A stretch of 64,000 bases of DNA from contig VDMD01000017.1 in the NCBI GenBank assembly GCA_007026445.1, positions 496,001 to 560,000 of the forward strand, given 5' to 3'. The notes below the pieces were generated by a model. That model saw only the letters and a program-made list of their open reading frames with translations, did not search any database and had not been told where the DNA came from. This document shows, in pieces, positions 12,241 through 33,020 of the stretch. This DNA comes from Schizophyllum amplum. Its lineage: Eukaryota; Basidiomycota; Agaricomycetes; Agaricales; Schizophyllaceae. A program made the position numbers and the translations under genes. Numbering within the stretch: the first letter of the stretch is position 1; every line of letters begins with the position of its first letter.

Positions 12241-12528
12241 CAAGAAGCGCATTTTTAACACTGATACAGATACAGAAAAGACCGTTTTCCGTCTCAGGTA
12301 ATCCCCCAAACTATTTTATTACCTCAACAAAGCTAACCTGTGATAGATGTCTGCCTTCGTTGCGGTTGAACTCGGCGCTTTCGCGCCACAACTTTCCAGG
12401 CCCTCATGCGCGGCTGTACTCTAGAACGTGTCCTGGTGAGCTGACTCCCTCTGTAATATTTGTTCCGCTTTTTCACGCCATGATCGCATGGGATCCGGCA
12501 GCGCGTTCGCAGCGGGACTGTGCATCAA

Positions 12529-15175
12529 TCATGGCGATGGCGGGGCGCCTGGCTTGCGTTCGAGATTCGGAATCTCGATGTCCGATTCCGCTAATCGCAC
12601 GTGGTTCCTCGTCTCTGCGCTAGGCGCTTCGACGGTGAGTTCGTTCATTTCGCGCTCTTCATCTCCTTGCACCGGGGATGCGATGCCCTGATTCTCTTTG
12701 ACTCCCACACTCGACGGGTCGCCTGTGGCCTCGGACTTTCCCCTTTGATCTAGAAGCGACACCTCGTTGATCATAATTTCGTAGCTTTTCGGGCCCACAA
12801 CGTCTTTGACCCAGTCGTGGTCCACCTCAAGCTTGTGCAGCAGCGCTTTGGGGTCGTCAACAGCGCCCATGACATCCATCTCCTCCAGGAGCGAAGTCCA
12901 GAGGAACGGTCTTCGAGGTAAGTTGGTTGGCACTTGCTGTACGAGCAGCCACCTCATGGGATGCCTAGACACGTCGGGCGCCGCTTTTCGCGCCAGAAAC
13001 GACCGAATGCGGCCTACTGCATCACTCGCAAGTACAAAATGATCTCCGAGGGTTGAGTCTCGGGAACGCGCTGGTTCTCTCTCGTCCGCACTAGGCGCGT
13101 TAGCAGTGAGTGCTTTATTCGTCACTTTTGAGCTGACTTCGTCCTCAGAGTTCGTCGGATGGGTCGGCTGATAGCCGCTTCGTTCCCCCTCCGTTGACTG
13201 TGACGGTGAACACGGTCGGTCCGACTCAATCTCGAGAACGCTGTCTGCCGGGCCAAGTAAGTCAGGGCAGCTTGAAGGCGGCACAACGCTGACGACTTCG
13301 TGTGCGGACTCGCTCGCTTTGCAGGTAGCACGCCATTCGACATCGTCCTTACTCGCGCGAAGGCGTGAGTTCGAAAGGAAGTCGCTCGGCGGTTTCTGCT
13401 CGGGTTGCGACTCAGCAGGGGTCGTCCAACCGTCCCCTTGCTCCTTCGAAGCGCGACGCTTCGCTCGCGCAAGGAAGCCGTGCGTCGCCTTCGTCTTCCT
13501 CGGTGCTTTGTTCATCAGAGGTACGAGTTCGTTTGTGGCGAGTACAGGCACACTCTGACGCGTGTATGTTTCCTTCTCCGTCGCCGAAGCGCTCATAGGT
13601 TTGTCAGGACCAGCGGCGTTAGCAGCCGGTTCAGGTGGCTTCTCCAAAACGTGGTCAGGAGCGACCCGAACCTGCCGAAGCTCGCGAGGTGCGCCCTTGT
13701 GCACGCGCCCGTGGTTTCGACAGGCGGCTCGCCTTAGAGGGAGCTCAAAGTCCCATGAGGGCCTTGAGATACGTGTCTGCGAGTTTCCTGACGCTTCCTG
13801 AATAGGTTCGGCGTTGGAGTTCCCAGCGGACGCGTCTCTCAACGACGGAGTCTCCCGTGCATCGAAATGCATCTGAGGTATGTCTTTATTTCTGTTCCCA
13901 TTGCTCACATCGCTTTGGGTAGGTTTCCTCTCGTCCGGCACGTTGGGCCGGCTCGCAGGGATGCTCAGGCCAAGCGCGCTCGATACTGGGCCAGAGTACG
14001 CCGCGGAAATGCGTCCGACGAGGACAGGAGCGCATTGCGCCTCGCGAGACGTGCCAGAAGGCTTGTCATTGCGGTTGGAAGACGCCGGATGCGCCAGGGG
14101 CGATCAAGGTGCGTACTATCATAGTAACGAAGCTCGGAATCCGCTGACGCTTGCTGAAATGGTGCAGTATTGCGCAGCGTTGACAATGTGTTCCAGGACG
14201 CAGGACCTTGCGCCTCGAAGCACTGATGCGGTACGTGTCTGGTCGCCGAAATCTCATCCCAAATAACACCCCCACATTGTACGGCGCGCTCGACGCGTTC
14301 GCGCGCTGGTTCTGGGATTTGGGCAGGCAGTCCGTAACGAGGTGCGTCGGCCGGAGCATAATCCGGCGAATACAGCTCGTACTGACGACTGTCGTACGTC
14401 CCAGCGACTTCGCCGTGAGGCGTGGTATTCCCGTTCATGCCCTCAACTCAGAAGGCGACAGAGGCCCGCCATTCCAGTTGTCTGGGAACACGGCAGGTAA
14501 GTAGACGCTTCCAGCGCCTGGCTGGTAGGTTACGTGCTGCACTGACATATCGTTTTGCACAGAAGCGTGGTATTGACTTGGAGGCGGCAAATGCGGCGCG
14601 TTCTGCATCGCCTGTGTCTCTGGCAAGCCCATCCCACCATGCCATCCACCATAGGTGCTCCGCCGTGTATCCTGAATCATCGGGTACGAGTAGCGGCTGC
14701 CGCTCGGAGGCTGCACTTGTGAGTACGCCTCGACGAAACCTGGCATTGGCTGACTGTATGGAACGCCCGGATAGGATGGTCGCTGCGACGCAGGCGCCAG
14801 GGCAGGCGGCAGAGGGTCACGGTCAGCAGGCAATTGTATGTGCCAGGACACGTCGCTCTCGACCTTCGCAACCTGTGCATGCAGTTGACGGAGGTCATCG
14901 CGCACTTCGCCTTGCCATATATGCAGCGCGTTATGTGTTTCTTTATTATTGTATTCACTACTCAATGACAACAATGAGCAGCGCGTTTCCAGCGCATCAA
15001 GGCGCTGGTGATCGAACAGCCGTTCGTGAGCCGCCCATTCCCATTCTAAGGCTGTGTCATCGTCGGCATGCGCAGAGGAGAGGCGGCACGCCCGCGATCT
15101 CGCAGTCGATGTAATGGACACTGCGAGGGCACGCGAACACGCATTGAAAGAATGGGCCACGTTTAGGTGCGCCAT
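12529..15175 (-). CDS. Three consecutive reading frames of a disordered, low-complexity protein
   Basis: Three long open frames follow one another on the minus strand: 15175-14435 (246 codons, ATG start), 14438-13965 (157 codons), and a frame open to 12529 (read from 13941, 470 codons, no ATG at its head). The first two overlap by ATGA, and each step is a -1 shift. The first frame has a helical charged segment (YNNKETHNALHIWQGEV, LRQLHAQVAKVESDV) followed by Pro/Tyr/Gln-rich sequence; the third is Ser/Pro/Glu-rich with one more ordered stretch (RWLLVQQVPTNLPRRPFLW, KALLHKLEVDHDWVKDVVG). I see no gag, zinc-knuckle or enzyme motif. It could be a host gene with introns I could not place, a frameshifted pseudogene, or an accessory region of the neighbouring retroelement relic, whose sense strand it shares. 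Confidence 0.4.
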
Positions 15176-15780
15176 TACCTTCTACCACAACGACACACGC
15201 CAAAATGCCCTAGGTTACATCGCCCGACGATCGTCGCAGATGGACGTGCCAGCGTCGTGCAAGGAGTAATCATTGCATAGACCTTTCATGCACGACAAGG
15301 AGGGCCGTGCTCTCAGTACTTCCCGATTGTTGGAGAAGTGCGCGGGATCGCCCTGCTGAGAATAGGAATAGGTATGCCTTCACCTTTGTCACACACCCCT
15401 GTTCCACGTCGAGAATAACCGCTCTGAGTCCTCATCGCACCAGGAACTCGCGGTGCTGTCCTCGACATGAGCAACGCATCCTTGTTCTTTACTGTGGGCC
15501 ATTCTGTCGTGACGCGATAACGTGTCTATAGAGTTTTTGCCCCTCTTGAAGTGTTCTTGCACGTCTATGGAGAAGATGCGGTAGCCCGTCTACCACACAG
15601 CGAGTGGCAGTGCGCACGTTTGCATGGGAAATGACAATGACAAATGTATAGTGACATTATAAGGTGAGTTGATGAGTTCCCTCGCCGCAGACGCCTGACA
15701 ACACGTTTATAGATGATGTACACAACTGCCTGGACGCGCTGGAGGCATGCACAGACGCGCTAGACGCACGAAACGTCTAA
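15176..15780. other. Intergenic
   Basis: About 600 bp with no reading frame I can support on either strand. The left part may hold the promoter of the minus-strand frames ending at 15175. Confidence 0.35.
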
Positions 15781-16759: not shown

Positions 16760-17524
16760 CAGTGAGTCGTTCTTTCTCTTCTTTATTGCCTTTTCATTGA
16801 CATCTTGTCTAGACTGCGGGTGAGGAAGCTTGGGCTGTCTTGGGGGCGGGGGGACGACTGCGCGGCCTCCGGCCGCGCCTCGCTGTAGGATCCTCGCTTG
16901 GTGCATTGGTGAGTTATATCTTTCTCTTGTTGACTAGCTTCTCATTGATACTTCGTGTAGATCGCGGGTGAGGGAGCTTAGGTTATCTTGGGGGCTGGGG
17001 GACAACCGTGCGCGCCGCCGTTCTCGTCTTTGTCTCGTGGACTGGAGTCGGCGCCGCCGCAGGCCTGTATCCTAGAGGAGAGCAAGGTGCGTTTCGTGTC
17101 TTATCTTCAGGTATAGTGCTGACCTTTCCGTAGCGCGCATCGCCGTCCGGGGAACAAGGTCCCTCCTCGCCATGGAGTCTCCCCATGGTTTCAAAGCGAT
17201 TAGCATCCTACAGGCTCCCAATACTAATCATCGTCCAGAACACCGTAGGCGATGAGTATCTGTATCGTCGTCCGGCGACCGAGGTGAGTAACATATCGTG
17301 TATTTAACATGTTGCTAACTGACTTGTTAGGTTGCTTCATCCTCGCCGGCCATGCATACTCACGCCCTTAGGCGATGAGTATATGTATCGCCGTCCGCCG
17401 AGCGACGCTGCGGACGTTGTTAGCCTCTTCGAGATGTGTTCGCCGTCGCCCTCAGCGTCTCCAGGACGCGCCAACAACGGTCTCCGCGAGGTTAGACGGC
17501 GAAGGCGATGAGTATATGTATCGC
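16760..17524 (+). repeat. Array of duplicated exon/intron-like cassettes, left part
   Basis: Two neighbouring copies (about 16760-16870 and 16908-17000) share an intron-like stretch that starts GTGAGT and ends TAG, followed by GCGGGTGAGG and CTTGGGGGC. Further on, a 35-bp unit is repeated at 17250-17277, 17370-17400 and 17503-17524. Its core is GGCGAT, 10 nt, ATCGCC, then GTCCG and GCGAGC. Each unit is preceded by TAG and several are followed by GTGAGT, so each could act as a very small exon encoding GDEY.YRRP. The last copy is cut by the large retrotransposon and resumes at 32373. Whether the array is transcribed is unknown. Confidence 0.55.
17521..17524. repeat. Target-site duplication TCGC, left copy
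   Basis: Matches 32373-32376 directly after the right LTR. It could be 5 bp (ATCGC), because the base before it equals the last base assigned to the right LTR. Joining the flanks rebuilds an intact copy of the GGCGAT...ATCGCC repeat, which confirms the insertion point. Confidence 0.85.
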
Positions 17525-18742
17525 TAATACGCCGTCTATAATTACGGGCTAGTTTTGCGGCATAATGAGCAATAAGCCTAAGAAGGCAGTTACCCATCGG
17601 GAAGAACCCGAGCAACGTTCAGACTCATAGCGAGTACTGTGTTCACGGAGAGACCGGCTTAGAGATAAAATAATAAGGATAGTAGCGAGGCCTCAGAGGA
17701 CGGCAGTCACCAACTCCGCGCCGTCTAGGGACACATCCTACGAGTCCGGAGGCCCACCAGGGTTTTCCTTACCGATGAATATCGAAGATCTCACCTTAAA
17801 GTCGTATACTCGCCGCGTTCATCAGACCTGTCTAGCGAGAAGAACAGGGGGACCGATATCAAGGATAGCCCAAAAGCATGCACAGAAGCCAGATAGAACT
17901 AGTTAGTATGAGCACGGACGAGCTAAGGTCTCGCGGTACAGGCGACGCCGGGGTTGACAATGCGCGGCACTCGCCGGGGCAGTTCCCACGGTTCGACTTT
18001 ATGGCCAATACCCGAGACACTGAGTCGGAAGCTGATGCTTCGCCGCGGGAGGTCTATTACTGGGAGGATAGCGGCTGTTGCACAGCCTCTCGGCTGTAAA
18101 CAAGCCCTCGGGAACCCTCAAAGCCGTAGAATTGAGGAGAGATCCCCCGAATCCAACTGGAACAAACAATGTGCCGTCTCCGGCAGGGCTTTAGGGCCAT
18201 TCTGGACCACAAATACCGCATGGGGAGGCGGAAGACAACCGTATAGAACACCCGAGAACGCAGGATTACGCGAGAAAAGCGTAGTAAAGCGCGGCGCGGC
18301 GCGGAAAGGGAATGACTCACAAGCATAGACCCGTTAACTATATAAGGCCTGGCATACGAGGGGATGGGGGACGACTTTTGGGACGAGACCATCGTACTAT
18401 CAGTTCTCCTACTGCCTCTCATTGAGACAGAATAAAAACCCGGCTCCTCTTTTGAGAAGCAACAACAAAACTCGTGTGACTAAGGCGTGCTCCGCTTTTG
18501 CAACATAAGAATTTCCCAGTTAGACCTAGACGGAAGTGAACTACTTGCTGTCGAAGCCTATCCAGTACCTAAAGGCGTGCTAGTTCCATTTGATTCTCCC
18601 TTAGCAATACAAGTCGCAACTCGCAGCTCCTCACAGGGCACAAGAGCTTGACAAGACAGTTATTGTGTGTATTTAGGGGTTGGTGTGTGTGTCTATTGAT
18701 TCTATCCCGCTGCTCTTGTTCTCGAGGCGCGCGTGCATATTA
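17525..18742 (+). repeat. 5' LTR, 1,218 bp
   Basis: Begins TAATACGCCG and ends GCATATTA, giving 5-bp inverted ends TAATA/TATTA. It repeats exactly at 31155-32372 as far as I checked. A TATATAAG at 18339-18346 is a good promoter candidate and AATAAA at 18431-18436 a poly(A) signal candidate, so transcription would start near 18370 and the R region would be short. Open frames within the LTR have no recognisable content. Confidence 0.95.
18339..18346 (+). promoter_or_regulatory. Putative TATA box of the LTR promoter
   Basis: TATATAAG about 85 bp upstream of an AATAAA in the same LTR; an identical copy lies at 31969-31976. Position fits a U3-R boundary near 18370. Inferred from sequence only. 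Confidence 0.5.
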
Positions 18743-18744
18743 TC

Positions 18745-18761
18745 TGGAGCCCACCGCGAGG
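18745..18761 (+). promoter_or_regulatory. Primer-binding site
   Basis: TGGAGCCCACCGCGAGG starts two bases after the 5' LTR. The leading TGG pairs with the CCA end of a tRNA, as expected for minus-strand priming. I did not identify which tRNA. Confidence 0.7.
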
Positions 18762-19340
18762 GGGAATCTATAAAAGAACGGGCGGTCGAGAGTTGCTGTG
18801 AAGCCTCACATCTCGTACATTCGCTGTTGTTCGAATCTCAGAGGATATCTTGACAAAAGCGTCACATCCGAAAGCCAAAGTTTGCCCACCACGCCTCCCG
18901 GACGTAAATCAAACCTCATACCGCTTGACTGGAACGGAGACGTCTCATTGACCTCTACCAGACGGCATACGAGGCTCCTCTACAAGGAAGTCCAAGAGAG
19001 CGCCGAGGCATCGCGCAATCGCGATAGAACGCGAGAGCCCGAAGCGAGTCAGTCTTCACAGACTAATCCTTCACAACAACCAAACCATCAAACACCCGAA
19101 CCTACATATCCTTCTCCAGTTCCTTCAGATACAGAACCTTTGACTCCTCTCTCTTCAGAATCAGAATCTTCTCCTGTTCCCAGTCTCTCTGAATTACTTA
19201 GCTTCGAACTTTTGCTTGATATAGAACTTCCTTTCCAGAACGAACCCACCCTTCCCGATATCAACTTCAACTCCGCTATACCTACCCCTTCAGGAACTGT
19301 TCTATCAAACAGTAACCAAAAACCCGGGACTGCGAGCAAA

Positions 19341-20864
19341 ATGGCTACAAAGTTCAATCCCATGAGCAGCAATGCTCCCAAGTTCAGAAAGGAGGCGAGG
19401 CACGAGCTGCCTTTCTTCCTGGAAGATGCCTTGGAATATATGAAAAACGCGGGGGTGGATGCAGCCGAGTATCGCCTCAAGTTGCCGTTGTTGACCGGAG
19501 ACCAGGACACGAGAGAGCTGTGGACCCAACTAGCTAAATCAACGGCTGATTGGGACGCGCTCGTAGCAGCTATCAAGGAACGCTATCCAGACGTACAGTA
19601 CAAAACGTCGGGAACGCGGGCTTCGTTGGCTCTACTGGTCAAGGAATACAAGGGCCTGAAGGAGGCAGAAGCAGAACGAGGGCTAGATTTTACGCGCGGC
19701 TTCGAAGCTACTGCGTCGACGCTGGTTGATAAGAAATTAGTGACGAACTACGACTTGCTGATGCGGATTGTCGAGGTGTGTGACTCTGCACTAGTCTCCA
19801 CCCTCAATATCATGCTGTCGGCGAAGAGTTCAACGCTGAGTAAGCCAGCTGAAGCGGGACAGACGCCACCAGGACATCCGATTGGTACCTCCTTGGAGGA
19901 CGGCGGATATAAATGGGAGGATGTTCTTGCTACGATGCGTGAATTGTGGCGTCGAAGCTACGCAGCTGGTTCTGTCGCGACCGTAGCGACCGGTAGATCA
20001 GTCGAACCTGTTCCCTATTCGAACAAGGGCGCAGACTCGAACAGCCGGTACGTGAAATTGGAGCAAGACCTCCAAGAACTGGCGGACAGAACCGAGCGCG
20101 ACAACGCGGAGACCAAAGCCTCGCTCAAGACCCTAAAAGCGGAAGTACGTTCCGATCTCAGCCAGGGGATGGAAAAGCAAGAGAAGAAGATGGACTCCAT
20201 TCATGGGACATTGCAGCAGTTAGCGGCGAGACTGACAGCCAGTCAGACCGTCGCACCCGCAGCACCTACCGTGAATGTGGCACCAGCCGCTCCGAGTGGA
20301 TGGGGACCCCGACCTGCCTATGGCGCTGGGGCCCGCCCATCTAATCCATTCGGACAAGGACCCAGAAACTTCCAACGGTCGGATATGACCTGCCACTGGT
20401 GTGGAGGTCCAGGACATATCTCTAGGGATTGTCCAGATCTACAGCAGAACCTGAATACGGGGGAGCTTAAGATTGACCAATATAATAATATCACGACCAA
20501 GGAAGGAGTTCTGATCCCGAGGCGGTCGGGGCCGTTAGACAGTCCGATGAAGACGAAGTGGGAGCAGATGAAGGCAGCAGTCAATAATTATGTGATACAG
20601 CCAATCTACTCGTTAGCCCGTGCGGCGACTGGAGACATGTCTTGGTGGGGCCCGGGTACAGCTGGGGGCGCTTCTAATGGTCAGTATGGCCAGACAGACG
20701 TGTTCACAAATGACTGGGCCGGTCAATACGACCAGAACATGTATGACAGCCAGTTCGCGCCTCAAACCTACCAACCGTTTCAAACGGAAAGCTATGCTCA
20801 GTCAAGCACGATGGGACCGTCACAGATGGGTCCCTCTGCCGAGCAGAACCTAGGGGGTTTTTAG
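19341..20864 (+). CDS. gag: Gag polyprotein of the LTR retrotransposon
   Basis: Structural protein that should assemble virus-like particles and package the element RNA. The first in-frame ATG is at 19341 (MATKFNPMSSNAPKF), giving 508 residues. A capsid-like helical region follows (ELPFFLEDALEYMKNAG, ELWTQLAKSTADWDALV, ERYPDVQY). Near residues 250-300 there is a charged coiled segment. A CCHC zinc knuckle of the form C-x2-C-x4-H-x4-C lies at residues 351-364 (CHWCGGPGHISRDC). The C-terminus is Gln/Tyr/Ser-rich. The frame is open upstream to 18798 but holds no ATG there. The TAG stop at 20862-20864 is directly preceded by a GGGTTTT slippery site leading into the protease frame. Confidence 0.9.
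   Translation: MATKFNPMSSNAPKFRKEARHELPFFLEDALEYMKNAGVDAAEYRLKLPLLTGDQDTRELWTQLAKSTADWDALVAAIKERYPDVQYKTSGTRASLALLVKEYKGLKEAEAERGLDFTRGFEATASTLVDKKLVTNYDLLMRIVEVCDSALVSTLNIMLSAKSSTLSKPAEAGQTPPGHPIGTSLEDGGYKWEDVLATMRELWRRSYAAGSVATVATGRSVEPVPYSNKGADSNSRYVKLEQDLQELADRTERDNAETKASLKTLKAEVRSDLSQGMEKQEKKMDSIHGTLQQLAARLTASQTVAPAAPTVNVAPAAPSGWGPRPAYGAGARPSNPFGQGPRNFQRSDMTCHWCGGPGHISRDCPDLQQNLNTGELKIDQYNNITTKEGVLIPRRSGPLDSPMKTKWEQMKAAVNNYVIQPIYSLARAATGDMSWWGPGTAGGASNGQYGQTDVFTNDWAGQYDQNMYDSQFAPQTYQPFQTESYAQSSTMGPSQMGPSAEQNLGGF
20855..20861 (+). promoter_or_regulatory. -1 ribosomal frameshift heptamer GGGTTTT
   Basis: In the gag frame it reads G GGT TTT, followed at once by the TAG stop. Slipping back one base gives GGG TTT TTA GGC and enters the frame of the downstream protease region, which is open through to 22087. 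This fits the X XXY YYZ rule for programmed -1 frameshifting. Confidence 0.75.
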
Positions 20865-22087
20865 GCAGTTCGAGGAATCCCGCCGTACAACCAGTGCAGC
20901 GCTGGCGGCGCGATGAGGACTTTAAACAAAGGCCAGCGCAGAGAGAAAACTTCACAAATAATTCGAAAAATACACCCACTGTAGTACCTGCTCAAGGTGC
21001 GACAGAACCAACTACGAACTCGCGGCCGGCGCCCCCGCCACAGGGGCCCGTACACCCGTTCAGAAGTGTGCCAGAAACACGCTTTATCCCGAATGATCAA
21101 AGACCACCCGCGTTACCCGTCCGTCCCGGTGTGCAACCAGCCATCAGAGACGAGATAGAACGAGGAAGTGCTCAGAGAAAGGTGCAGGCTCCCATACAAG
21201 GGACCGCCGACGCACAGACGGTCCTGGACAAGTTATTAGACAGCAAATGCCCGACCACGGGAATTTCGTTAAGAGATTTCCTAGGTGTGAGCTCGTCAGT
21301 ACAGGACCTTCTCCGGAAACTGTTGACTCGAAAGCAGACAGTGGTTGATCATTTTGGAAATAATCTATACATCACCGCCGTAACCGAAGTATGGCAGGTG
21401 AAAGAGTTAGCATCGGCAAAGGGGGAACATATGGAGCCTTCGATGCAAGAAATACCTCAGATAGACTGGGCTAGCCTCAAGGGTGAACTCATCCAGACCA
21501 CGGTAGAAATGCCGAGCAGTTCTAACGGTACAGTTCCAATAGGAGCATTTGTACAGCTCGACGCAGCGCTCGAGGTTTACCAGAGCATGGGTGAGCAAGA
21601 AAGGACTGGGGTGACGTTCGCGGGAGAGGAATCCCAAAATCTGAGGACGGTGTGGCCTAACGTTAACGGTCATGGCGGGACAGAATGCATTATGGATGGC
21701 GGATCACAGATAGTTTCCATGTCAAAGACTTGTGCGCGAGAAGTGGGGGCCTCTTATGATCCGACGATCACAATCCGGATGCAGAGTGCCAATAATCAGA
21801 TAAATTCAACTTTAGGACTAGCGAAGAACGTCCCATTTGAGTTTGCTGGTATCACCATCTATCTGCAATGCCACATTTCGGACACGGAAGCCTTTGGCGT
21901 GTTGCTCGGACGTCCCTTTGATACTCTGTGCGAGTCCGAGATCAAAAACGACCGCTACGGCAACCAGGAGATCACCATCACCTGCCCGAACACCCGTAAT
22001 AAAGTGACCATGCATACCTATGCGCGAGGCAAGATACCTGAGCATCTCAAGGAGAAGCTGGGGTTTCCGGAAGCTTCAAGGAACTGA
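20861..22087 (+). CDS. Retropepsin-type protease frame (pro) of the LTR retrotransposon
   Basis: Open in the -1 frame relative to gag and lacking a good ATG at its start, so it is most likely made as a Gag-Pro fusion by frameshifting at 20855-20861. The N-terminal half is Pro/Arg-rich linker. The protease core is near 21690-21930. It has the catalytic motif CIMDGGSQIVSM, in which the usual D-[ST]-G appears as D-G-G, then MQSANNQINSTLGLAKNVPF and the second-domain motif FGVLLGRPFDTL. The enzyme should cut Gag and Pol into mature proteins. The stop is TGA at 22085-22087. Pol lies in the next -1 frame, and I could not find a canonical heptamer for that second shift. Confidence 0.8.
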   Translation, partial: LGSSRNPAVQPVQRWRRDEDFKQRPAQRENFTNNSKNTPTVVPAQGATEPTTNSRPAPPPQGPVHPFRSVPETRFIPNDQRPPALPVRPGVQPAIRDEIERGSAQRKVQAPIQGTADAQTVLDKLLDSKCPTTGISLRDFLGVSSSVQDLLRKLLTRKQTVVDHFGNNLYITAVTEVWQVKELASAKGEHMEPSMQEIPQIDWASLKGELIQTTVEMPSSSNGTVPIGAFVQLDAALEVYQSMGEQERTGVTFAGEESQNLRTVWPNVNGHGGTECIMDGGSQIVSMSKTCAREVGASYDPTITIRMQSANNQINSTLGLAKNVPFEFAGITIYLQCHISDTEAFGVLLGRPFDTLCESEIKNDRYGNQEITITCPNTRNKVTMHTYARGKIPEHLKEKLGFPEASRN

Positions 22088-25000
22088 TTCCAGGCCTTGA
22101 GGATCAGGGAGAAGCAGCGCTACAGGTAGAAGTGGATGAAGGGAGACGAGTGTGGATAAAGAGCATACATAAACTAGAAAATACAAAAACATATACGCAG
22201 AAGGACCTTCAAGAGGCCTATCTCCAAGCGGCACTAGACGCGGACGAGGTAGAGGATGAGGAAGGAAGAAAGACCTTGGCGAGTTTCTTCGGGACGAACC
22301 TGGTATATTCTGGCAAAGCGAGTGACAGTCTCGGGGATGCCCCGATCAATGGCAGACCAGATTCAGTCTACTCTGACAAGCGAGACAGAACATATTATGA
22401 CCAGCGGGGTCGGGTCCGGGAAGCAGTGAACTCGCTAGACCCCCCAGTCTCTACCTTAGCGGGGAAGAAATACAAGCCGGTCGCGATGAAGGTTCGGCCA
22501 GTGTACGAACATCTACCACAACAATTTCGCATTGTAAGAAATATACAAGGAGATCCAGAGAAGGACCTGCCTGTGTTGCCGACGCATCCGCCGGAATATA
22601 CGCCTACGGGTCGCTATACCGCGGAAAGAAAAGAGATAATTGACAAAGCGCATCCGGGAGACTTTCTCTGGCCTGAAGAGCGCAAACTCCTACACTATCT
22701 TATGATGGTACAACACCGGGGTTTCGCTTGGAACGATGATGAACGTGGCTGCTTTAGGGAGGATTTTTTCCCTGCGGTAGATATTCCCGTAATACCCCAT
22801 AAACCGTGGGTGGAGCGCAACATACCGATCCCGCCGGGCTTGTACGAGGAAGTTTGTAAAATCATCCTCAAAAAGATACAAGCCGGTGTCTATGAGCCTT
22901 CGAACTCGTCGTACCGCTCTAGATGGTTCTGTGTGGTCAAGAAAGATGGCAAGAGCTTGAGACTCGTACATAGTCTCGAACCCTTGAATGCAGTCACTAT
23001 AGCTCATTCGGGACTACCTCCCGCAACAGACTCGCTCGCCAGCTGGTTCTCGGCTCGAGCGTGTGGTGGTATTCTTGATCTGTTTGTAGGTTACGATGAG
23101 CGGCTCCTTGCGGAGTCCTCTCGAGACCTTACAACATTTCAGACGCCTTTTGGGGCGTTCCGACTGAGGACGCTACCTATGGGATGGACAAATGCAGTAC
23201 CAATATTCCATGACGATGTCACGACTATCTTGCGTCCTTTAATACCCGAACTAACGATACCGTACATTGACGATGTACCTATCAGAGGGCCGGAGACGAG
23301 GTACGAATTGAAAGAAGGAGGATACGAGGTCATACCAGAAAATACAAAAATAAGACGCTTCGTTTGGGAACACCTGAACAACGTGAACAAAGTAATCCAG
23401 CACATGAAGTATTCCGGGGGTACGTTTTCGGGCACGAAGGCGTACCTCTGTGTACCCGAATTCGATGTAGTGGGCCACCGGTGCGCGTACGAGGGACGCA
23501 AACCAGAGGACAACCGCATTGGGGTGATACAGAACTGGGGTGCGTGCAAGGACCTCTCAGACGTACGAAGCTTTCTGGGAGTCGCAGGAGTATATCGCAT
23601 GTTTATCAAAGACTACGCGAAAATAGCAGAACCTCTAGTGAAGTTGACGCGCAAGGGCGTGCCCTTCCAGTGGGGGCCTGAACAGAAAGAAGCACAGGAG
23701 GCGCTGAAAGACGCGCTCGTCAAGAGTCCACCGTTGCAGCCGGTAAGGTATCACGTTGACTGGGAAACCGTGCTCGGGGTAGATACATCGTACAAGGCAG
23801 TCGGCTGGTACATACAGCAGATAAATCCTGACGATACCAAAGAATTCTACTACTGTCGCTTCGGCTCCGAAGTGCTCAGTGAGCGCGAGTCTCAATATTC
23901 CCAGCCAAAGCGAGAATTATTCGGTTTAATGCGGGCGCTCTTGGTCGCGCAGTACTGGCTGTTAGGTTGCAGGCATCTGGTCATCGAGACAGACGCAAAA
24001 TATATACACGGCATGCTGAAGAACCCTGGAAGCGGTCCGAATGCAACGATCAACCGTTGGATCGAACATATACTTCTATTCCACTTCACGCTACGCCACG
24101 TATCTGGCAAATCACATTCTATAGCGGATGGTCTATCTCGTCGACCTCTTTACGTGGGTGACGAGCGTCGGGCTAGAACTGACGGAGGGGACCTGGAATT
24201 GCAAGGCTTACGAGGTTTTGAAGTGAAATATGGCCTACCCGATGATACTTTGGATCTGGAAGAATTCAGAGACTCCATAGACACCCGGGGAGGTTATGTA
24301 CAGTTCAGCTCGCCTGGCATACCGCGTAGAGATCTGTTTGCAAGAGAAAAGAAGGTGCAGATGGCGTTTCTACAGTTTAAGCAAGACTGTGTCGCGCAAG
24401 GGGGAGAGCCTACACTGGGCGTGCTACTGGCATCGCGAGGAGTGACCCAGCCACCCCGGTTACCCGATCCTGTGGAGAACCTGAAGGATGAGGAATCTCT
24501 GGCCCGCTATCGCGAACTACCAAGGTCTGAAGAAGATCGCCGGTTGGACGACGACTTGTGGCATTTAAGGGATTACTTCAGTCAGAATCCCATAGACTTG
24601 TCGCCGCTGAAGTGGGACGAGTTGGCCTGTCTCGCTGCCGACTTCCGAATGTCAAAATCCGGAAGAATATACCACAAATCAAAGGGAGGGAGCGCGTTGC
24701 TAGTATGGCCTAGAGACCGCTGGTTTCTCATGAATCAAGCTCAGTCCGTGGTTAACAACGCTACCTTCGTGGAAGTATGGGGGCTATTGAAGGACAAATA
24801 CTGGTGGCCCAGCATGAGACAAGATGTAGAAAATTACCTGGGGAGCTGTGACGGCCACCTCTGGGATAGAAAAGAAATTCTGGCATTGCCTACCAAACTA
24901 CCGCTCACACAAGGACTATTGCAGGTGTGCTACGAACCTAGCGAGTCTGCGGTAAAAGTAGAAGGGATGTCGGCCTTAGAATATGAACTACGAACAGTGA

Positions 25001-27030
25001 AAGGTCTGCCCACCAAAGTAGTGGACCCAGTCGCTCGCCTAGTAATAGAAGAACTGTCGTCAAAAATAAAACTGCCAGTCCCGGAGAGGGAAGCCGAAGT
25101 ACGAGAGCTCGAACCGCCGCCACCAGTTTTTACTATGGCGCTCGATGAGAGCGACTTCAAGGCGGAAGTTGAGCTAGCAAGGAAGGAGACAGAAGCGCAT
25201 AGCCTGGTGTGGAAGAGTCATCTCGCGAATATGGGGATCGACGAAAACCACGAGGTGTATAAGGCTTTTGTGATAAGCGAGAACGAGGAGGCGGCAAGGG
25301 GAGAAGAATTGGGGGCATACCCACCCAAGAAGCGGACCCTTGTCGCAAGGAACGAAGACGCCAACATGCGCCGAGCGCTGGACGCGTTAGAACGAACCGG
25401 GGACTTTGCAGACGCAGAGGTCCGCCGGAAAAATAAGGATAAAATAAAGAAGTGGGCACGGCACTATGAGGTGCATGGTGGACGGCTGTACCGCAAAAGC
25501 GATCACGATCAGCGGCCTCTACTGTGGGTGCCACCAGAAAAACGAATGGAGATGATGAGACAAGCGCATGATAGCTTGGGTCATCGAGGCGCCTGGGCAA
25601 CCGGGAGTCAACTCTTGCTCCGATTCTGGTGGAAGGACCTTCGAGAGGACGTGGATTGGTTCGTTGGGACGTGCCACCCGTGTCAAGAACGGCTGAAAAC
25701 AATCGTCAGGATTGCGCCCGTAATAACTTTCACACCAGCGCTATTCCAAGTGATTCACATAGATACCATGCATATGACCCCGGCTTCTAATGGTCGGAAA
25801 TATATCATACATGCGCGGGACTCTCTGTCTGCTTGGGTAGAAGGACGAGCGCTGTCGAAGGAAACAGGGGAGCAAGTTGCGAGGTTCATACTCGAAGAGA
25901 TAATCTGCCGTTGGGGATGTCCATCGGAAATTGTCACTGACAACGGACCACCCATCAAAGCCGGGCTTGCCTGGATCAAGGCGAAGTACGGGATAGAACA
26001 CATCAAGGTGTCTACGTACAATTCGCAAGGAAACGGGAAGGTGGAGCAGCTACACTGGGATATCAGACAGTCGTTGGCGAAAGCCACAGCCGGACAGATG
26101 CACAAGTGGTACTTCTACTTGCATTTCGTATGGTGGGCAGACCGGGTGACACTGAGGAGAAGACTGGGAGTATCTCCTTACTTTCTAGTAACTGGAGCGC
26201 ACCCCATCTTACCTCTAGACCTGGCAGAAGCTACCTGGCTAGTAGATTATCCCGGAGAATTCTTGAGCCGCGACGACCTGGTCGGGCTTCGCGCTCAAGC
26301 ACTCGCGAAACACCACGATACCGTAAACCAAGTACGAGCAAGAATTACGCGAGAGAAGCGAGCGCGTCTATCCCGATACGAGCAGCAATACGGTACGGTT
26401 ATCAAAGTCCTAGACTTTAAACCCGGCGACCTAGTCCTCATAAGGAACACTCGTATCGAGAAATCACACAGTACTAAGATGCTGCCACGCTATTTGGGAC
26501 CCATGGTGGTCCTAAGGCGCACTACGGGCGGGTCCTATATTGTCTGCGAAATGGATGGTACGGTCTATCATAGTAAAATCGGAGCGTTCCGTGTGCTGCC
26601 CTATAAAGCGCGCACAAGCATACCGTTGCCCGATAACATACAAGACTTGATTGACACGCCGCCAGACCGCATTGATGAGCTGATGAGGGAACCCGAGACA
26701 GAACACCCGGACGATGTGCCAAGCGAAGAGGAAGGCGCTGAAGCCCCGGACCAGGGGGTTGCGCAAGTGTTAGACGAGATAAATAGCGAGTTCGAAGCAA
26801 TAAACGGTGCAAACCCCGTGGCAAGGCCTCTCTCTCCTATTCTCGAAGAAGATGAGACCCCAGGTCTACCGGACGATCCGCCAGATCTACCCTTGATTAC
26901 TGCAGATCTACCAGAGGACCTAGGGGAAGACGAGATAGAACCAGTGGGGAGACCCGCGCGACAGCGAAAGCCATCGGGAGCGCTGGCGCGAGCGGGAGGC
27001 TGGGACGCGGTTTTGAAGCGAGTGCGATAG
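22088..27030 (+). CDS. pol: Pol polyprotein: reverse transcriptase, RNase H, integrase
   Basis: One long frame without an ATG at its head; it is readable upstream to about 22060 (KELIPGLEDQGEAALQVEV), consistent with -1 frameshifting from pro. Numbering from codon 22132: reverse transcriptase at about 230-480, with GGILDLFVGYDER and YIDDVPI (YxDD near 377); RNase H at about 540-660, with LGVDTSYKAVGWY, RELFGLMRAL and IETDAKY. An H2C2-like but degenerate block lies near 870-920 (KDKYWWPSMRQDVENYLGSC), and an intact H2C2 at about 1144-1185 (AHDSLGHRG...TCHPCQ). The integrase core has HIDTMHM, VTDNGPP and GNGKVEQL with the last D and E 35 apart, and a C-terminal RYLGPMVVLRR module follows. All catalytic residues are present. 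An acidic tail of about 130 residues ends at TAG 27028-27030. Confidence 0.93.
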
Positions 27031-27341
27031 AACCAAAGCCCGCGCAACGAAGTTATGGCGCCTCAAAATAGTGATGCCATTGACTTCGTAAGTGCAGAAG
27101 TAAACTACCGTACTACTAGTCTTTTACGGAACACAACAGCGAGCAAAGGGCAGGTACACTAATCGGTGTCTAAGAGTCCGAGTACCCGTGCCGCTCAAGC
27201 AGCCAGCCAACCCGTACGCTGCAGAAATACGGAAAGAATTACAAAGATGGCGAACGCAGCCTGGCAGATCGACACCAGAGAAAGTTGAAAGAAGGAACGG
27301 AGTGAGATAGAACCGCACGTATTCGCCTCAGCGCGGAGGAG
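27031..27341. other. Gap between convergent pol and antisense gene A
   Basis: No supported gene. It must hold the 3' end signals of antisense gene A on the minus strand. The motif GAGATAGAACC at 27307 recurs at 28653. Confidence 0.4.
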
Positions 27342-28620
27342 TCAGGCGTCGGTGGCAGGCATGACCGTCTCGGCATCACTGCCCTCGGCGTCCTCGTCAT
27401 CGGCCTGGGGGGCAGATTCGTCCTGAGTATCGACGTCCATCTCGTCGGAGATCACGGCCTTGGACTTAGGCGCGCGCTTGCCCTTGCCTTTGCCTTTCGC
27501 CTTACCGCTCTGAGGAAGTAAGAATGAGATAGGGCGCCAAGACGTAAGCAACAACGCACCTCGGTCGAGGATGACCCCGCGGCGGACCCACTGGGAAGGC
27601 CAGCGAGGAGAGCGGCCACGCCGTCGCGCTGCTCCTGGAGGTGCTGATGCACGAGATAGTGGACGCCGAGGGCGCAAGCCGTAGTCGCGAGCTGGGAGTC
27701 CAAGTCCTTCAGCATAGCCGAAAGGTGGTTGGGCTTGGGGCTGCCGAACGACGACGCCTTGGCAATGGTCTCCGCGACCTTTTCGAGTGCAGACGCAGCG
27801 TCGGTACCGAGGAGAGCGGTGAAGATCGCCTCAGTGTTCGCCGCTCCGTGCTCAAGCTTGAGCTGGCCGTACGTGGTGATGTTGGGCAACTAAGGGAGGA
27901 TCAGTAACGCTATTCGGGGCAGGGCACGGCACACGTACCTTGTGGGGACCAGCGGCGTCTAAGGCGTCAGCAAGAGCACGCTTAGTGGGCTTCTTGTCCA
28001 CCACCAGAAGGACGTCCGGAGTCTGAACGCCAGGGATGAGCAGGGGCTTCTTGCCGCGGGCAGCACGCGGGGGCTTGGGGGGGGTCACGACCTCGACCTC
28101 CTCCTCCTTCGCAGCTTCAGCCGCGGCAACTTGAGCCTCTAGCTGAGAGAGAGCGTAAGCAACAGAACGATGAGGGTGGGATAGAACGACGCACCATTGC
28201 CACAATCGCGTGAATGCGCTTCTTCACCGTAATAAACCCTGGGTACCGATCCGTCGGGGGCAGGTCGGGCGCGAAGGGGCTCTGCATGGCCAGGATCAAC
28301 TGCTTCATCTTGACGTAGATCTCAAGATGGTCGATGGTGGCAAAGGCGGTGTCCTCCACCACAACCTGATGAGAAGCGTCAGACACAAGACAGGTCCGCC
28401 TGAAATAAGGAGTTACCTGGCCCCAACTGAAAACGTCGCGGGTCGGGCGGTGAAATTGGTCTATGTTGTCCTTGAAGAAGGGGCTTTTGCGACCTTCCGG
28501 ACTCGCCAGGTGGTGCCCGGATCGTGAGTACGCGACGAGGTCGAAAGTTTTGATGTGGGAAGCGACCTGGAGGGTGCGCGGCTGTCCCATGGAGGGAGTG
28601 GCGGATTTGGGAGGAGGCAT
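27342..28620 (-). CDS. Antisense accessory gene A inside the retrotransposon, five exons
   Basis: The function is unknown. The start ATG at 28620 (MPPPKSATPSMGQPRTLQV) and the stop at 27342-27344 are joined through four introns of about 50 nt with good borders: GTAACT, GTGCGT, GTACGT and GTGCGT donors, each with a CAG or TAG acceptor. All four junctions are phase 0 and keep the frame, which random sequence would not do. The spliced product is about 355 residues. It has an N-terminal part with HIKTFDLVAYSRSGHHL and TRDVFSWGQ, then HLEIYVKMKQLILAMQSPF, a charged Ala/Glu/Lys/Pro linker, a helical region (AIFTALLGTDAASALEKVAE, GVHYLVHQHLQEQRDGVAAL), a GKGKGKRAPKSK basic stretch likely to be a nuclear signal, and an acidic tail. 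Because it lies opposite the genomic RNA, its introns are not removed during retrotransposition. Confidence 0.8.
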
Positions 28621-29139
28621 CCTGAGAGGAAAGACAGTGGAGGTTGGCTGAAGCGAGATAGAACCTTGCCTGTCCTTATATATCCTGGCCGAGGCGGAGG
28701 ATCGACTGGACGGCAGAGGAAAGAAGTTTTACCCCGGCTTCAAGTAACGGATGTCTGCCGTAACGGCGAGGACGCCGTCTATTTTAGTGTGGGGGAGGAT
28801 AGACTGTCTCGGGATATACACAGCCGCCTAGCGCAAATTTTCGCGTCAAAGTCAGCACGGATGAGGTCTTACAAAAAGAACTCAAACATCTGACACGTGA
28901 CTTCGGTACCGAACGACGGAACAAAGCGAAAAGCCAACTTCGGCAAATTAGACACTTGTTCGCAATTTTGATCTTACTTCAGACAATGGAGGCATCAAGA
29001 ACAAGGATTTATATTGCCAAGAAGTAAGGAGCTATGTATATATGCCCAAGAAACAAGAACTCGACAGAGTAAATAAATAACAGAGTCCCGAGCAGGGCAT
29101 GTAAGCAAGAAAGGGGGAGTAAAAAGATCCGAAAAACCC
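28621..29139. other. Spacer between antisense genes A and B
   Basis: No gene supported. It contains an extra polypurine-tract-like segment at 28783-28797, and presumably the promoter of gene A (minus strand). Confidence 0.45.
28783..28797 (+). promoter_or_regulatory. Internal polypurine-tract-like copy
   Basis: TTTAGTGTGGGGGAG here equals the sequence just before the 3' LTR (31139-31153). Ten bases a little upstream, CGCCGTCTAT, also match the LTR start region. It could prime a second plus strand (central tract) or be the scar of an old rearrangement. Confidence 0.5.
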
Positions 29140-30753
29140 TAGGGAGCAGGCTGAGGGCGAGTTAGAACGACCTAAGCATCCTGTAAAGGCTTGCACTCAC
29201 GCTGGCCAGACGGTCGGAGCGACGAAGGTTATAAGACCTAGCCTCGGCCCGGCTCAGGCGAGGAGGGACGGAATTCCCGGCGATGGGAGTCAGCGTCGGA
29301 ACCCGCGGAAAACTCGATGGGGGAAGCCAGTAACGGACCCGCCCGTCACCGTCGTAAATGGCGGTGTATCCCTGCAGCCGATCCTAGATCCAGGACGAGT
29401 TAACGTCGTACCAGGAAAATTGAAGAAAAACATACCTGTGTCACCCAGCGAATCGCGCAGCCTATCAAGGCCGGAAACGTCTCAGGGGAAGCCCTCGAAT
29501 CAGAGGGCCCCGCCACGGCGTTGACGGCAGACTGAGGCAAAGAGGCGGTGGGTGCCGCAGGAACCTGCGACCGTTAGTAACAGTGCCAAGATGAGAGACG
29601 AGGTCCACTCACCTCTGTCGACTCTTGGGGTACCGGGGAAGGAGGTGGTACGGCCTCGGCAGTCGCCGCGGTCCCTGACTCTGACACTGGTGCTGGAGGC
29701 GCAGGAGACGGAACGCGAGGCGTAGGCTCGCGCGCCGGAGCAGGCCAGAAGCGGTTGGAGCCCGGATGGGCAGCCGCGTGCTGCAGGAAGCCTGGCTCAT
29801 ACCACACTTCCCGGGGCGGAGTACCGGCGCGGCGACGACGACGCACCAGCCCTACCGAGCTCTGAGGGGCAAGGTTGGGTGTGGAAATCACACGCGACTT
29901 CCTAGCGCGCTTCGGCGGCGGCTGGGTAGGATCAAGCGTAAACAAAGAAAGAAAAAGGCGAGACAGAACAGGAACACGTACCGGGGAAGCACGAGGTGGA
30001 GGAGACGCCGCCTGGCGGCGCTTCGCCTGCGCAGCTCGACCCCCAGCGCCCCGTTCAGCGTCGGTGGCGCAATCGCAATCCTGCAAAGAGAAACCCTCGA
30101 CGCCGAAGGAGCGCGCCAGAAGCATCAGCTCCGAATCAGGGATGTAGCGATCCTTGCGACGGGAGAGGCGCTTGTCCTAAAGCCGGATTAGTCTGTAACA
30201 CGCGGAAGTTAGCGTAAGAAGGACTCACCAGCGCTTCATTCGCCCGGCGAATTCGCGTCTCCAGACTCGACGCCTTCGAAACCTCGTCCGGCATCGGAAT
30301 GTCCAGACCCACGGGGTTGAAAGTCATCCTGAAAATTAACTGTTAAGCAGTAAGAAGGAAAGGGGATAAATGAAAAACGCACGACGGGCGAGAGATCGGG
30401 TGGTTCGAGTACCACTTGGGACCCGGCTTGGCGACGCGTAAGATGTCGTAGAAAAAGAAGAGGCAGGCGCGGACGACCTCTTGAGGCTTGCCGCGACTGC
30501 CTGGGTGGACGGTTTCTTCATAGAAAGCGTCGGCCAAACCGTGCTAGAACACGGAATGAGCCCTCTGCCAAGCTAGCCAGGAAATAAGCAAACTCACCAA
30601 GATCGAACGTATTTGGAGGGGGAGTGCGTTGTTCTTGCGAAGAGCGCGAACCAGGTTGTGGGGGGTAGGCTCCTGATCACCCAGGGCCGTGAGCAGGCGC
30701 GAGTTGACCGTCAGGATCTTGTCACTGAAGGTTTTAGCGCCCTTGCGCGACAT
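29140..30753 (-). CDS. Antisense accessory gene B inside the retrotransposon, about eight exons
   Basis: The function is unknown. The best start is ATG 30753 (MSRKGAKTFSDKILTVN); a further upstream exon cannot be excluded. Exons are separated by introns of about 45-60 nt with GTGAGT, GTGCGT, GTGAGT, GTACGT, GTGAGT, GTATGT and GTGAGT donors and YAG acceptors; the joins I could check keep the frame (one is phase 2, the rest phase 0). The stop is TAG 29140-29142. The product is about 410 residues: an N-terminal ordered region (NSRLLTALGDQEPTPHNLVR, HGLADAFYEETVHP, VRACLFFFYDILRVAKPGP), a short domain with DKRLSRRKDRYIPDSELMLL, a basic stretch PPPKRARKSR like a nuclear signal, then Pro/Ala/Ser-rich linker and a C-terminus with DRLQGYTAIYDGDGRVRYWL and RSYNLRRSDRLAS. 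Its promoter would lie next to the 3' LTR, where TCACGTGA occurs near 30931. Confidence 0.78.
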
Positions 30754-31138
30754 CCGGTGCGTCTGCTCGCTGATGGGACGATCACGACGTGCTGTACGCC
30801 GGGGCTCAGTAAGGGCGAGACAGACGTAACGCAAAACTTACGAGTGGCCATGAGGGCAAGAGAGAAGGAGAAATAAGCTCGAAGAGGCCGTGCGGCGTTT
30901 AAGTACGTCAAACGGCGGCGACGGACCGGTCACGTGACGGCATGTTCGAAAGTTCAACTCCCGAGAAAGAGCCGTGAACTGAAGAAATGCCTGTAACTGG
31001 AATAAACCACCCACCATGCCGAGGCTCTGAGCTGGCTGGAGGGACCCTCTACACCCATTTGTGGGAAAATACGAACTCAGGTTCGAAGATAAAAAGATAT
31101 GATGGGCTATTGAAGCCAGTGACCGAGGACGGTCAAGA

Positions 31139-31154
31139 TTTAGTGTGGGGGAGA
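31139..31154 (+). promoter_or_regulatory. Polypurine tract
   Basis: TTTAGTGTGGGGGAGA directly abuts the 3' LTR start TAATAC. It is the expected primer for plus-strand synthesis, and the same arrangement is kept in the decayed relative at about 11.88 kb. Confidence 0.85.
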
Positions 31155-32372
31155 TAATACGCCGTCTATAATTACGGGCTAGTTTTGCGGCATAATGAGC
31201 AATAAGCCTAAGAAGGCAGTTACCCATCGGGAAGAACCCGAGCAACGTTCAGACTCATAGCGAGTACTGTGTTCACGGAGAGACCGGCTTAGAGATAAAA
31301 TAATAAGGATAGTAGCGAGGCCTCAGAGGACGGCAGTCACCAACTCCGCGCCGTCTAGGGACACATCCTACGAGTCCGGAGGCCCACCAGGGTTTTCCTT
31401 ACCGATGAATATCGAAGATCTCACCTTAAAGTCGTATACTCGCCGCGTTCATCAGACCTGTCTAGCGAGAAGAACAGGGGGACCGATATCAAGGATAGCC
31501 CAAAAGCATGCACAGAAGCCAGATAGAACTAGTTAGTATGAGCACGGACGAGCTAAGGTCTCGCGGTACAGGCGACGCCGGGGTTGACAATGCGCGGCAC
31601 TCGCCGGGGCAGTTCCCACGGTTCGACTTTATGGCCAATACCCGAGACACTGAGTCGGAAGCTGATGCTTCGCCGCGGGAGGTCTATTACTGGGAGGATA
31701 GCGGCTGTTGCACAGCCTCTCGGCTGTAAACAAGCCCTCGGGAACCCTCAAAGCCGTAGAATTGAGGAGAGATCCCCCGAATCCAACTGGAACAAACAAT
31801 GTGCCGTCTCCGGCAGGGCTTTAGGGCCATTCTGGACCACAAATACCGCATGGGGAGGCGGAAGACAACCGTATAGAACACCCGAGAACGCAGGATTACG
31901 CGAGAAAAGCGTAGTAAAGCGCGGCGCGGCGCGGAAAGGGAATGACTCACAAGCATAGACCCGTTAACTATATAAGGCCTGGCATACGAGGGGATGGGGG
32001 ACGACTTTTGGGACGAGACCATCGTACTATCAGTTCTCCTACTGCCTCTCATTGAGACAGAATAAAAACCCGGCTCCTCTTTTGAGAAGCAACAACAAAA
32101 CTCGTGTGACTAAGGCGTGCTCCGCTTTTGCAACATAAGAATTTCCCAGTTAGACCTAGACGGAAGTGAACTACTTGCTGTCGAAGCCTATCCAGTACCT
32201 AAAGGCGTGCTAGTTCCATTTGATTCTCCCTTAGCAATACAAGTCGCAACTCGCAGCTCCTCACAGGGCACAAGAGCTTGACAAGACAGTTATTGTGTGT
32301 ATTTAGGGGTTGGTGTGTGTGTCTATTGATTCTATCCCGCTGCTCTTGTTCTCGAGGCGCGCGTGCATATTA
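31155..32372 (+). repeat. 3' LTR, 1,218 bp
   Basis: No difference from the 5' LTR in all blocks compared (offset 13,630 bp), including the TATA-like element at 31969 and AATAAA at 32061. It ends GCATATTA, followed by the TCGC target duplicate at 32373-32376. Confidence 0.95.
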
Positions 32373-33020
32373 TCGCCGTCCGGCGAGCAAGGTGTGTAAC
32401 TCATTGTTTCTTTCAATCTCGTCACTGACTATCATAATAGCTCACTACATCGTCGACGGGGGGACGTACTCAGTCCCGTAGGCGATGAGTATACGTATCG
32501 CCGTCCGACGAGCGAGGTGAGTGCTACGTCCAACGGCTTGGCATACGACTGACCCTCCCGCCTAGACAATGAGTATATGGATCGCCGTCCGCCGAGCGAC
32601 ATGATCGACGCGCCCGACGGTCTCCTAACACTCTCACGATGTACCCTCACCTTACGCCCACCAAGCGGCGAGCACCTAGGCGATGAGTATATGGATCGCC
32701 GTCCGGCGAGCAGGCCATTGGTGAGTACTCAGCGGTCATTGGTCACGTTCGATCTGACTGAAACTTGTAGGCTCCTTCACCATTGTCGTTGCACCACGCC
32801 CTCGATCTCGGACACATCCGACATGCCCCCCACCCCCCACCCTCGGACGCGATACGCCCTCTGCGCACCCCGCCTAGCACCAAAGCAACGTATCGCCGTC
32901 CGGCGAGCAGGCCATGCGTCGGGGACGTGTATTCTGTGAGTCCAACACTCTCCTCATCCGTATTCCGCTGACGTTTTCTTAGCAGATGGTGACCTTCTGG
33001 TGTCGTAGATGCCGGCGGAG
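32373..33020 (+). repeat. Array of duplicated exon/intron-like cassettes, right part
   Basis: Continuation of the array at 16.8-17.5 kb beyond the retrotransposon. Copies of the GGCGATGAGTATA...ATCGCCGTCC unit lie at 32373 (right half), 32478-32511, 32563-32597, 32678-32705 and 32888-32915. Intron-like stretches of about 47-50 nt, each GTGTGT or GTGAGT to TAG, start at about 32390, 32512, 32715 and 32936. On the minus strand the unit reads GRRYVYSSP, so coding could also be argued there. The plus strand has the better splice signals. Confidence 0.55.

Follow-up and report, generated by a model that had tools for sequence, protein, structure and literature searches.

A 64,000-nucleotide stretch of the genome of the basidiomycete Schizophyllum amplum (GenBank assembly GCA_007026445.1, contig VDMD01000017.1, positions 496,001 to 560,000; hereafter the window) carries a complete Ty3/Gypsy-like long terminal repeat (LTR) retrotransposon of 14,848 bp at window positions 17525-32372, within which two multi-intron genes, here called A and B, lie on the strand opposite to gag-pol. 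Long-term selection has kept both the protein sequences and the intron positions of these genes in an LTR family that carries the pair opposite gag-pol. The explanation that best accounts for the whole is that A and B are antisense-carried, spliced accessory genes whose introns are sheltered by their orientation and whose products are nuclear, and we give this combination a probability of roughly 0.6. An earlier reading of the DNA letters (the original prediction) had proposed these two genes, and the measured size of the element matches the 14.85 kb that it gave.

Gene A was modeled with four introns of 49 to 52 nt (51, 52, 49, and 50 nt), every one in phase 0, and gene B with eight (50, 54, 54, 52, 60, 48, 52, and 50 nt; phases 1, 0, 2, 0, 0, 0, 0, and 0, in order); exon coordinates are given in Table 1. 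All 12 introns run from GT to AG, 10 of them are in phase 0, and both frames stay open. The original prediction had called four introns in A, nearly all junctions in phase 0, and frames open across the joins, which the models bear out. It had also described B as a spliced minus-strand gene, which holds, but with about seven introns instead of eight and with an end at 30753 that falls short of the start at 30851. The eighth intron was entered in the model of B because an intron stands at the corresponding place in all three element lineages described below. Read in sequence, the product of A has an KGKGKGKRAPKSK basic stretch, a lysine-glycine repeat, and an acidic tail, and the product of B is basic and proline-rich with a PKRARKSR basic stretch.

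We found A and B genes at seven loci of the 49.65-Mb genome, namely, the window copy (W) and copies C79b, C272, C248, C236/C10, C2, and C288. C10 and C236 were counted as one locus and taken as one insertion because they have a common 3′ flank (99.9%), though their 5′ flanks differ. The 3′ halves of these two copies (L011-L014) are common as well, their 5′ halves, though broken by many small gaps, are almost identical to W, and the pair may represent haplotypes or assembly misjoins; an interpretation of the mosaics as recombinants was given up in favor of one insertion with 5′ halves possibly misjoined, and the two copies are not taken as proof of recombination. The gene order is kept at six of the seven loci, and the rearranged seventh (C2) has pieces of A and pieces of B apart from each other, in keeping with the earlier claim that the genes belong to the element. 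The copies fall into three types. Type 1 comprises W, C79b, and C272, which are near-identical (over A-B, C79b has 1 and C272 has 2 differences from W). Type 2 comprises C248, C236/C10, and C2; the C248 proteins are 70% (A) and 61% (B, computed on exon pieces only) identical to those of W. Type 3 is C288, with an A protein 47% identical to that of W and a reverse-transcriptase region with 76% nucleotide identity. The acidic tail of A is present in W, C248, and C288. The third-type B (L050, C288, after 60875) has an acidic C-terminal tail, and the window B is without one.

Intron sites were compared across the three types, and sites where the spliced aligner misplaced introns, owing to a lost acceptor or missing exons, were re-read by hand. 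In C288, the most diverged copy, 11 of the 12 intron sites correspond in phase and place to those of W, with 8 at the exact position and 3 no more than two codons away. For A, whose frame in C288 is open from start through stop, introns 1, 2, and 4 fall at the identical aligned residue in phase 0, and intron 3 is off by at most one codon, also in phase 0; C2 keeps A intron 3 together with its acceptor. For B, where positions were compared by eye, C248 and C288 both have introns 2, 3, 4, 5, and 7 at the residue and in the phase found in W. The two introns near the termini of B keep their phase: the site of intron 1 is unchanged in C248 and displaced by two codons in C288, and intron 8 is shifted four codons in C248 and two in C288. 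B intron 6 falls within a proline-rich stretch that could not be aligned and that contains two introns in C288. The intron interiors gave a different picture: across eight W-C248 pairs, leaving aside A intron 3, for which C248 has lost the acceptor, and the later-modeled B introns 7 and 8, identity was 48% (160/334), against 46% (510/1119) for mismatched pairs. The intron sequence is saturated, and the splice sites are retained. Both genes appear to have been kept as spliced protein-coding genes across many rounds of reverse transcription, and A and B are almost certainly real spliced coding genes of the element.

We estimated the ratio of nonsynonymous to synonymous substitutions (dN/dS; pN/pS for uncorrected proportions) by Nei-Gojobori count. 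Codon counts excluded the variable B residues 291-366 and exon matches below the score threshold (exon 5 in A of C2, the last two segments in B of C2, and the fifth segment in B of C288), and misaligned low scorers above the threshold were retained (e.g., the third segment in B of C236, 10/33 identical). Between W and C248, A gave a dS of 1.00, a dN of 0.199, and a dN/dS of 0.20 (357 codons), and B gave a dS of 1.39, a dN of 0.320, and a dN/dS of 0.23 (346 codons), with bootstrap pN/pS ranges of 0.26-0.39 and 0.34-0.49, respectively. Differences were in excess at third codon positions (74/44/167 by position in A and 97/90/184 in B). The comparison of dN/dS between element copies that the original prediction had proposed thus came out at about 0.2 for both genes in the W-C248 pair. 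Within type 2, C248 and C2 gave dN/dS values of 0.21 (A) and 0.46 (B) and pN/pS values of 0.22 and 0.49. Ratios involving C288 are uninformative because synonymous sites are saturated (pS, 0.67-0.74).

The same comparison revealed a mosaic history. The dS of pol between W and C248 is 0.19 at 22.42-24.84 kb and then 1.8-2.0 up to 26.66 kb, and the edge near 24.84 kb is visible in C236 and C10 as well. The split of the 3′ module (integrase, A, and B) is thus older than that of the 5′ module, which suggests template switching between element lineages. Within the 3′ module, the W and C248 proteins are 94% identical for integrase (dS, 1.8), in contrast to 70% for A and 61% for B (dS, 1.0 and 1.4); A and B therefore evolve fast for proteins, yet under constraint, as fast-evolving accessory proteins do. 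At the breakpoint edge, a fast-evolving stretch of pol between RNase H and integrase (24841-25500) shows 57% protein identity between W and C248, and the next stretch shows 94%.

Upstream of each gene stands one copy of a duplicated block made of a hairpin with a 4-base loop and a sense-strand polypurine tract. The terminal block is the ordinary polypurine tract at the LTR, and the internal block precedes gene A. Apart from these upstream blocks, the A-B spacer is poorly conserved. The internal block recurs with a 5-bp stem in C248, C236, and C2, where the loop is changed, and in C288, where one stem pair is altered on both sides (CGGCG/CGCCG in W and type 2 and CGGTG/CACCG in C288), so that pairing is preserved in all three types; in the terminal block, the stem reads GACCG/CGGTC. 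The terminal 16-mer has 13 exact occurrences in the genome, of which 8 fall at A/B element loci and 5 at other places, with 0 control matches. The column of the TATA-like box of gene A is occupied by TATTTAAG in the alignment of C248, C236, and C2. A CACGTG motif lies upstream of each gene; the two in the element, against about four expected by chance, make the count meaningless in itself, so that conservation alone counts. A second, related element end lies in the window at 11880-15181, where this hairpin (11904-11919) and its polypurine tract recur on the other strand, next to minus-strand frames of 524 and 248 aa; a degraded stretch that resembles it sits at C300 (L059). Antisense spliced genes were suspected in this related family at C300, but the idea was dropped, since by eye the corresponding part of the window, at 12.5-14.1 kb, has a 524-aa frame on the family's sense strand.

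The sense strand of the element has the frames listed in Table 1. We class it as a Ty3/Gypsy-like LTR retrotransposon by its LTRs, its target duplication, and the predicted succession of gag, protease, reverse transcriptase-RNase H, and then integrase. Pfam matches above the cut-off were RNase H, H2C2, rve, and CCHC; the Pfam scan of the element frames gave no match to the reverse-transcriptase core domain, whose YIDD motif was found by eye. The gag, protease, and pol frames are long and without interruption, each at −1 relative to the preceding one, and a slippery-type heptamer, GGGTTTT, stands at 20855-20861, immediately 5′ of the gag stop. Two −1 shifts are more like some retroviruses than a typical fungal Gypsy element. 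The LTRs are identical across 1218 bp, and the second copy on the same contig, C79b (C79:141420-156267), has ACGT at either flank. The identity of the LTRs and the target duplications show recent mobility. The LTRs begin with TAATA and finish with TATTA, where TG...CA is usual, and the target duplication spans 4 bp.

Table 1. Coordinates of the features of the retrotransposon in the window
Feature	Position	Strand	Remarks
Target-site duplication TCGC	17521..17524 (left copy), 32373-32376 (right copy)	.	flanks the window element
5′ LTR	17525..18742	+	1218 bp, ends TAATA...TATTA; end placed by copy C79b and target duplications
gag-like frame	18774..20864	+	delimited by stops; contains CCHC zinc knuckle; open frames, Pfam
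Protease frame	20747..22087	+	aspartyl protease match slightly under Pfam cut-off; −1 vs gag
pol frame, 1662 aa	22042..27030	+	RNase H, H2C2, integrase by Pfam; YIDD reverse-transcriptase motif by eye
Gene A, 358 aa	27342..28620	-	between pol (end 27030) and 3′ LTR; frame open
Gene A exons	28620-28417, 28365-28195, 28142-27939, 27889-27560, 27509-27342	-	
TATA-like box (TATATAAG)	28675..28682	-	~60 bp 5′ of A start codon; read from sequence
Internal block: hairpin ACGGCG-AGGA-CGCCGT, then polypurine-like TTAGTGTGGGGGAG	28763..28798	+	upstream of gene A
CACGTG	28894..28899	.	upstream of gene A; kept in C248, C236, C2
Gene B, 430 aa	29139..30851	-	between pol and 3′ LTR; one terminal stop
Gene B exons 1-5	30851-30842, 30791-30598, 30543-30383, 30328-30229, 30176-29982	-	
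Gene B exons 6-9	29921-29613, 29564-29436, 29383-29201, 29150-29139	-	
CACGTG	30931..30936	.	upstream of gene B; kept in C248, C236, C2
Terminal block: hairpin TGACCG-AGGA-CGGTCA, then polypurine tract	31120..31154	+	adjoins 3′ LTR, upstream of gene B
3′ LTR	31155..32372	+	1218 bp

We searched for the identity of A and B in several collections. Pfam searches with the window A and B returned no family at E values up to 1 and 5, and TRP28 (PF04195), the marker domain of Retand, was absent from both in the Pfam search; a match to an O-methyltransferase dimerization domain (E value, 0.26) in just one of three A members was not accepted. Sequence and profile searches of the PDB with A and B gave weak or low-complexity matches only, such as the lysine-glycine stretch of DNMT1 (E value, 0.4), and these were rejected. 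A structure prediction of A exon 4 alone, with two long helices, was discarded for its low confidence (mean predicted local distance difference test score, 56.6). Among viral contigs, 148 and 60 pattern matches came up, and no relative was confirmed in either set. Envelope-like genes would lie in sense orientation and encode transmembrane segments, whereas A and B are antisense and inspection by eye showed no such segments. In the genome itself, counting the best-scoring candidates listed, the A/B matches lay on element-bearing contigs in 37/37, 39/39, 29/29, and, for the fourth query, 19/21 cases, and the fourth query's two other matches had E values of about 0.02. There was thus no confident A/B homologue off element-bearing contigs among the matches listed, which argues against recent capture of a host gene.

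Several observations weigh against the explanation that we prefer. Neither the Pfam nor the PDB searches gave anything backing a nuclear role. The original prediction would have been undermined by frames broken or absent in sibling copies; A and B coding sequence is present at all seven loci, but most sibling copies are damaged, and both genes are demonstrably intact only in W and C79b (2/7 loci), with A alone intact also in C288. The acceptor of A intron 3 is gone in C248 and C236/C10, A has an additional frameshift in C236/C10, and B has frameshifts in C236; A of C272 and B of C288 have one frameshift each, and both genes are broken up in C2. Between C248 and C236, dN/dS rises to 0.63 (A) and 0.97 (B), with pN/pS of 0.64 and 0.97, indicating little constraint; such high ratios are as expected of decaying copies. 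Finally, the alignment of C288 shows no CACGTG at either corresponding place.

Other explanations account for parts of this evidence. Many long frames run on either strand of the region, so high-GC frames and intron-like motifs might have been joined by eye into artefactual gene models, but the 11 corresponding junctions in independent lineages and the neutral-like intron interiors contradict this and leave it virtually no chance. That A and B are passenger cargo with no function for the element would fit the decay of several copies and the known capture of cargo by plant LTR elements (discussed in excerpts of PMC7264820); against it, W and C248 have diverged under long-term purifying selection, and splice sites are retained in three lineages, and we consider it extremely unlikely. 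It is also very unlikely, if less so, that the antisense RNA is what functions, forming double-stranded RNA with the sense transcript, and that the protein frames are incidental. Antisense RNA control has been discussed for such elements (PMC7264820, in part), and introns would shape the duplex; against this, the constraint tracks codons (dN/dS, about 0.2), the frames rejoin at corresponding splice sites, the intron interiors are unconserved, and little of the A-B spacer is conserved outside the upstream blocks.

Two further possibilities concern function and origin, for which the original prediction had offered regulation of the element, silencing of competitors, or captured host genes. Transposon-encoded anti-silencing proteins exist. 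A and/or B may likewise oppose host silencing of the element, which would account for proteins that change much faster than integrase in the same module (70% and 61% against 94% identity), and the site between pol and the 3′ LTR is typical of accessory genes (PMC7264820, in part). The overall dN/dS of about 0.2, however, is not >1, no domain was recognized, and speed names no target, so we regard such counter-defense as unlikely. The capture of two host genes as genomic DNA, introns included, is compatible with the preferred explanation and is a tentative possibility for their origin: the 12 introns of 48-60 nt suggest that A and B were acquired as antisense DNA instead of spliced cDNA. Against it stand the lack of a confident match off element-bearing contigs, among the matches listed, and the divergence among element lineages, which shows A and B to be old residents.

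Under the preferred explanation of antisense-carried accessory genes, each of A and B would have an antisense promoter of its own that drives transcription once the element is integrated, and the host would splice the transcripts. The full-length sense RNA would show the introns reversed (CT...AC), so that the spliceosome would leave them and they would return to DNA intact in each cycle. This is the protection that the original prediction had argued for, and it fits an element in which the sense gag, protease, and pol are uninterrupted and the antisense side has 12 introns; we consider it very likely that antisense placement protects the A and B introns. By analogy with Grande GENE23 and HBZ, the products are probably nuclear accessory proteins acting on the chromatin and transcription of the element or of the host, although we rate a nuclear regulatory role, taken by itself, at slightly short of an even chance. 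The paired hairpin/polypurine blocks may coordinate expression of A and B or prime plus-strand DNA. A fuller picture, a two-strand retroelement in which gag-pol faces a two-gene, intron-rich regulatory unit with its own promoters and the block acts as operator of the antisense genes and second plus-strand start, with antisense placement used as a durable means of carrying spliced genes through reverse transcription and letting them evolve, is an improbable one.

A retroelement goes through an RNA stage and should therefore lose its introns. In laboratory antisense-intron retrotransposition reporters, a transcript retains an intron that runs against it; the logic is the same here, but the reporters are artificial and lose their intron by design, whereas the natural introns of A and B are kept. 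The HBZ gene of human T-cell leukemia virus (HTLV) is spliced. It is an antisense retroelement gene with a nuclear-localized product (PMC11963269, in part) and is of a type with an antisense promoter in the 3′ LTR (PMC10186651, in part); the window element differs in having two many-intron genes, for which internal promoters are inferred, with homology covered by the Pfam and PDB searches only. Another case is a Didymium ribosomal DNA group I intron, whose antisense homing-endonuclease gene has a 47-nt spliceosomal intron that is removed in vivo (PMC9548176, in part). There, too, the antisense gene of a mobile element retains a short spliceosomal intron, but the element class is another, the intron is single, and mobility is by DNA homing instead of reverse transcription.

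The layout itself has precedents, and the term undescribed system, for which the original prediction named it as its best candidate, is an overstatement: published accounts place antisense accessory open reading frames (ORFs) between pol and the 3′ LTR in the plant elements Grande (maize), RIRE2 (rice), and Retand and in the fungal Boty of Botrytis/Sclerotinia (PMC7264820 and PMC11963269, both in part). The product of Grande GENE23 is nuclear, and the gene has its own promoter, according to excerpts of the same sources. Boty is, like the window element, fungal, and its antisense ORF occupies the same interval, a likeness that holds by its cited description alone. The window element shares the antisense position between pol and the 3′ LTR with Retand, Grande, and RIRE2 and differs from Retand in having no TRP28 or other Pfam domain and in carrying two genes, one with 4 introns and the other with 8; the portion of the Retand paper available to us describes ORFs and not multi-exon genes, and the word intron occurs 0 times in its main text. 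Multi-intron antisense genes in an LTR element were not found reported in the open-access literature, which is no proof of priority. What sets the window element apart from known antisense-ORF elements is intron number together with demonstrated persistence: 11 corresponding intron sites have outlasted the intron sequence itself, in lineages whose A proteins are about half identical. The idea of an antisense shelter thereby becomes directly testable, with intron sites traceable over element phylogenies as a natural record, and two unassigned protein families join the few antisense genes known from retroelements.

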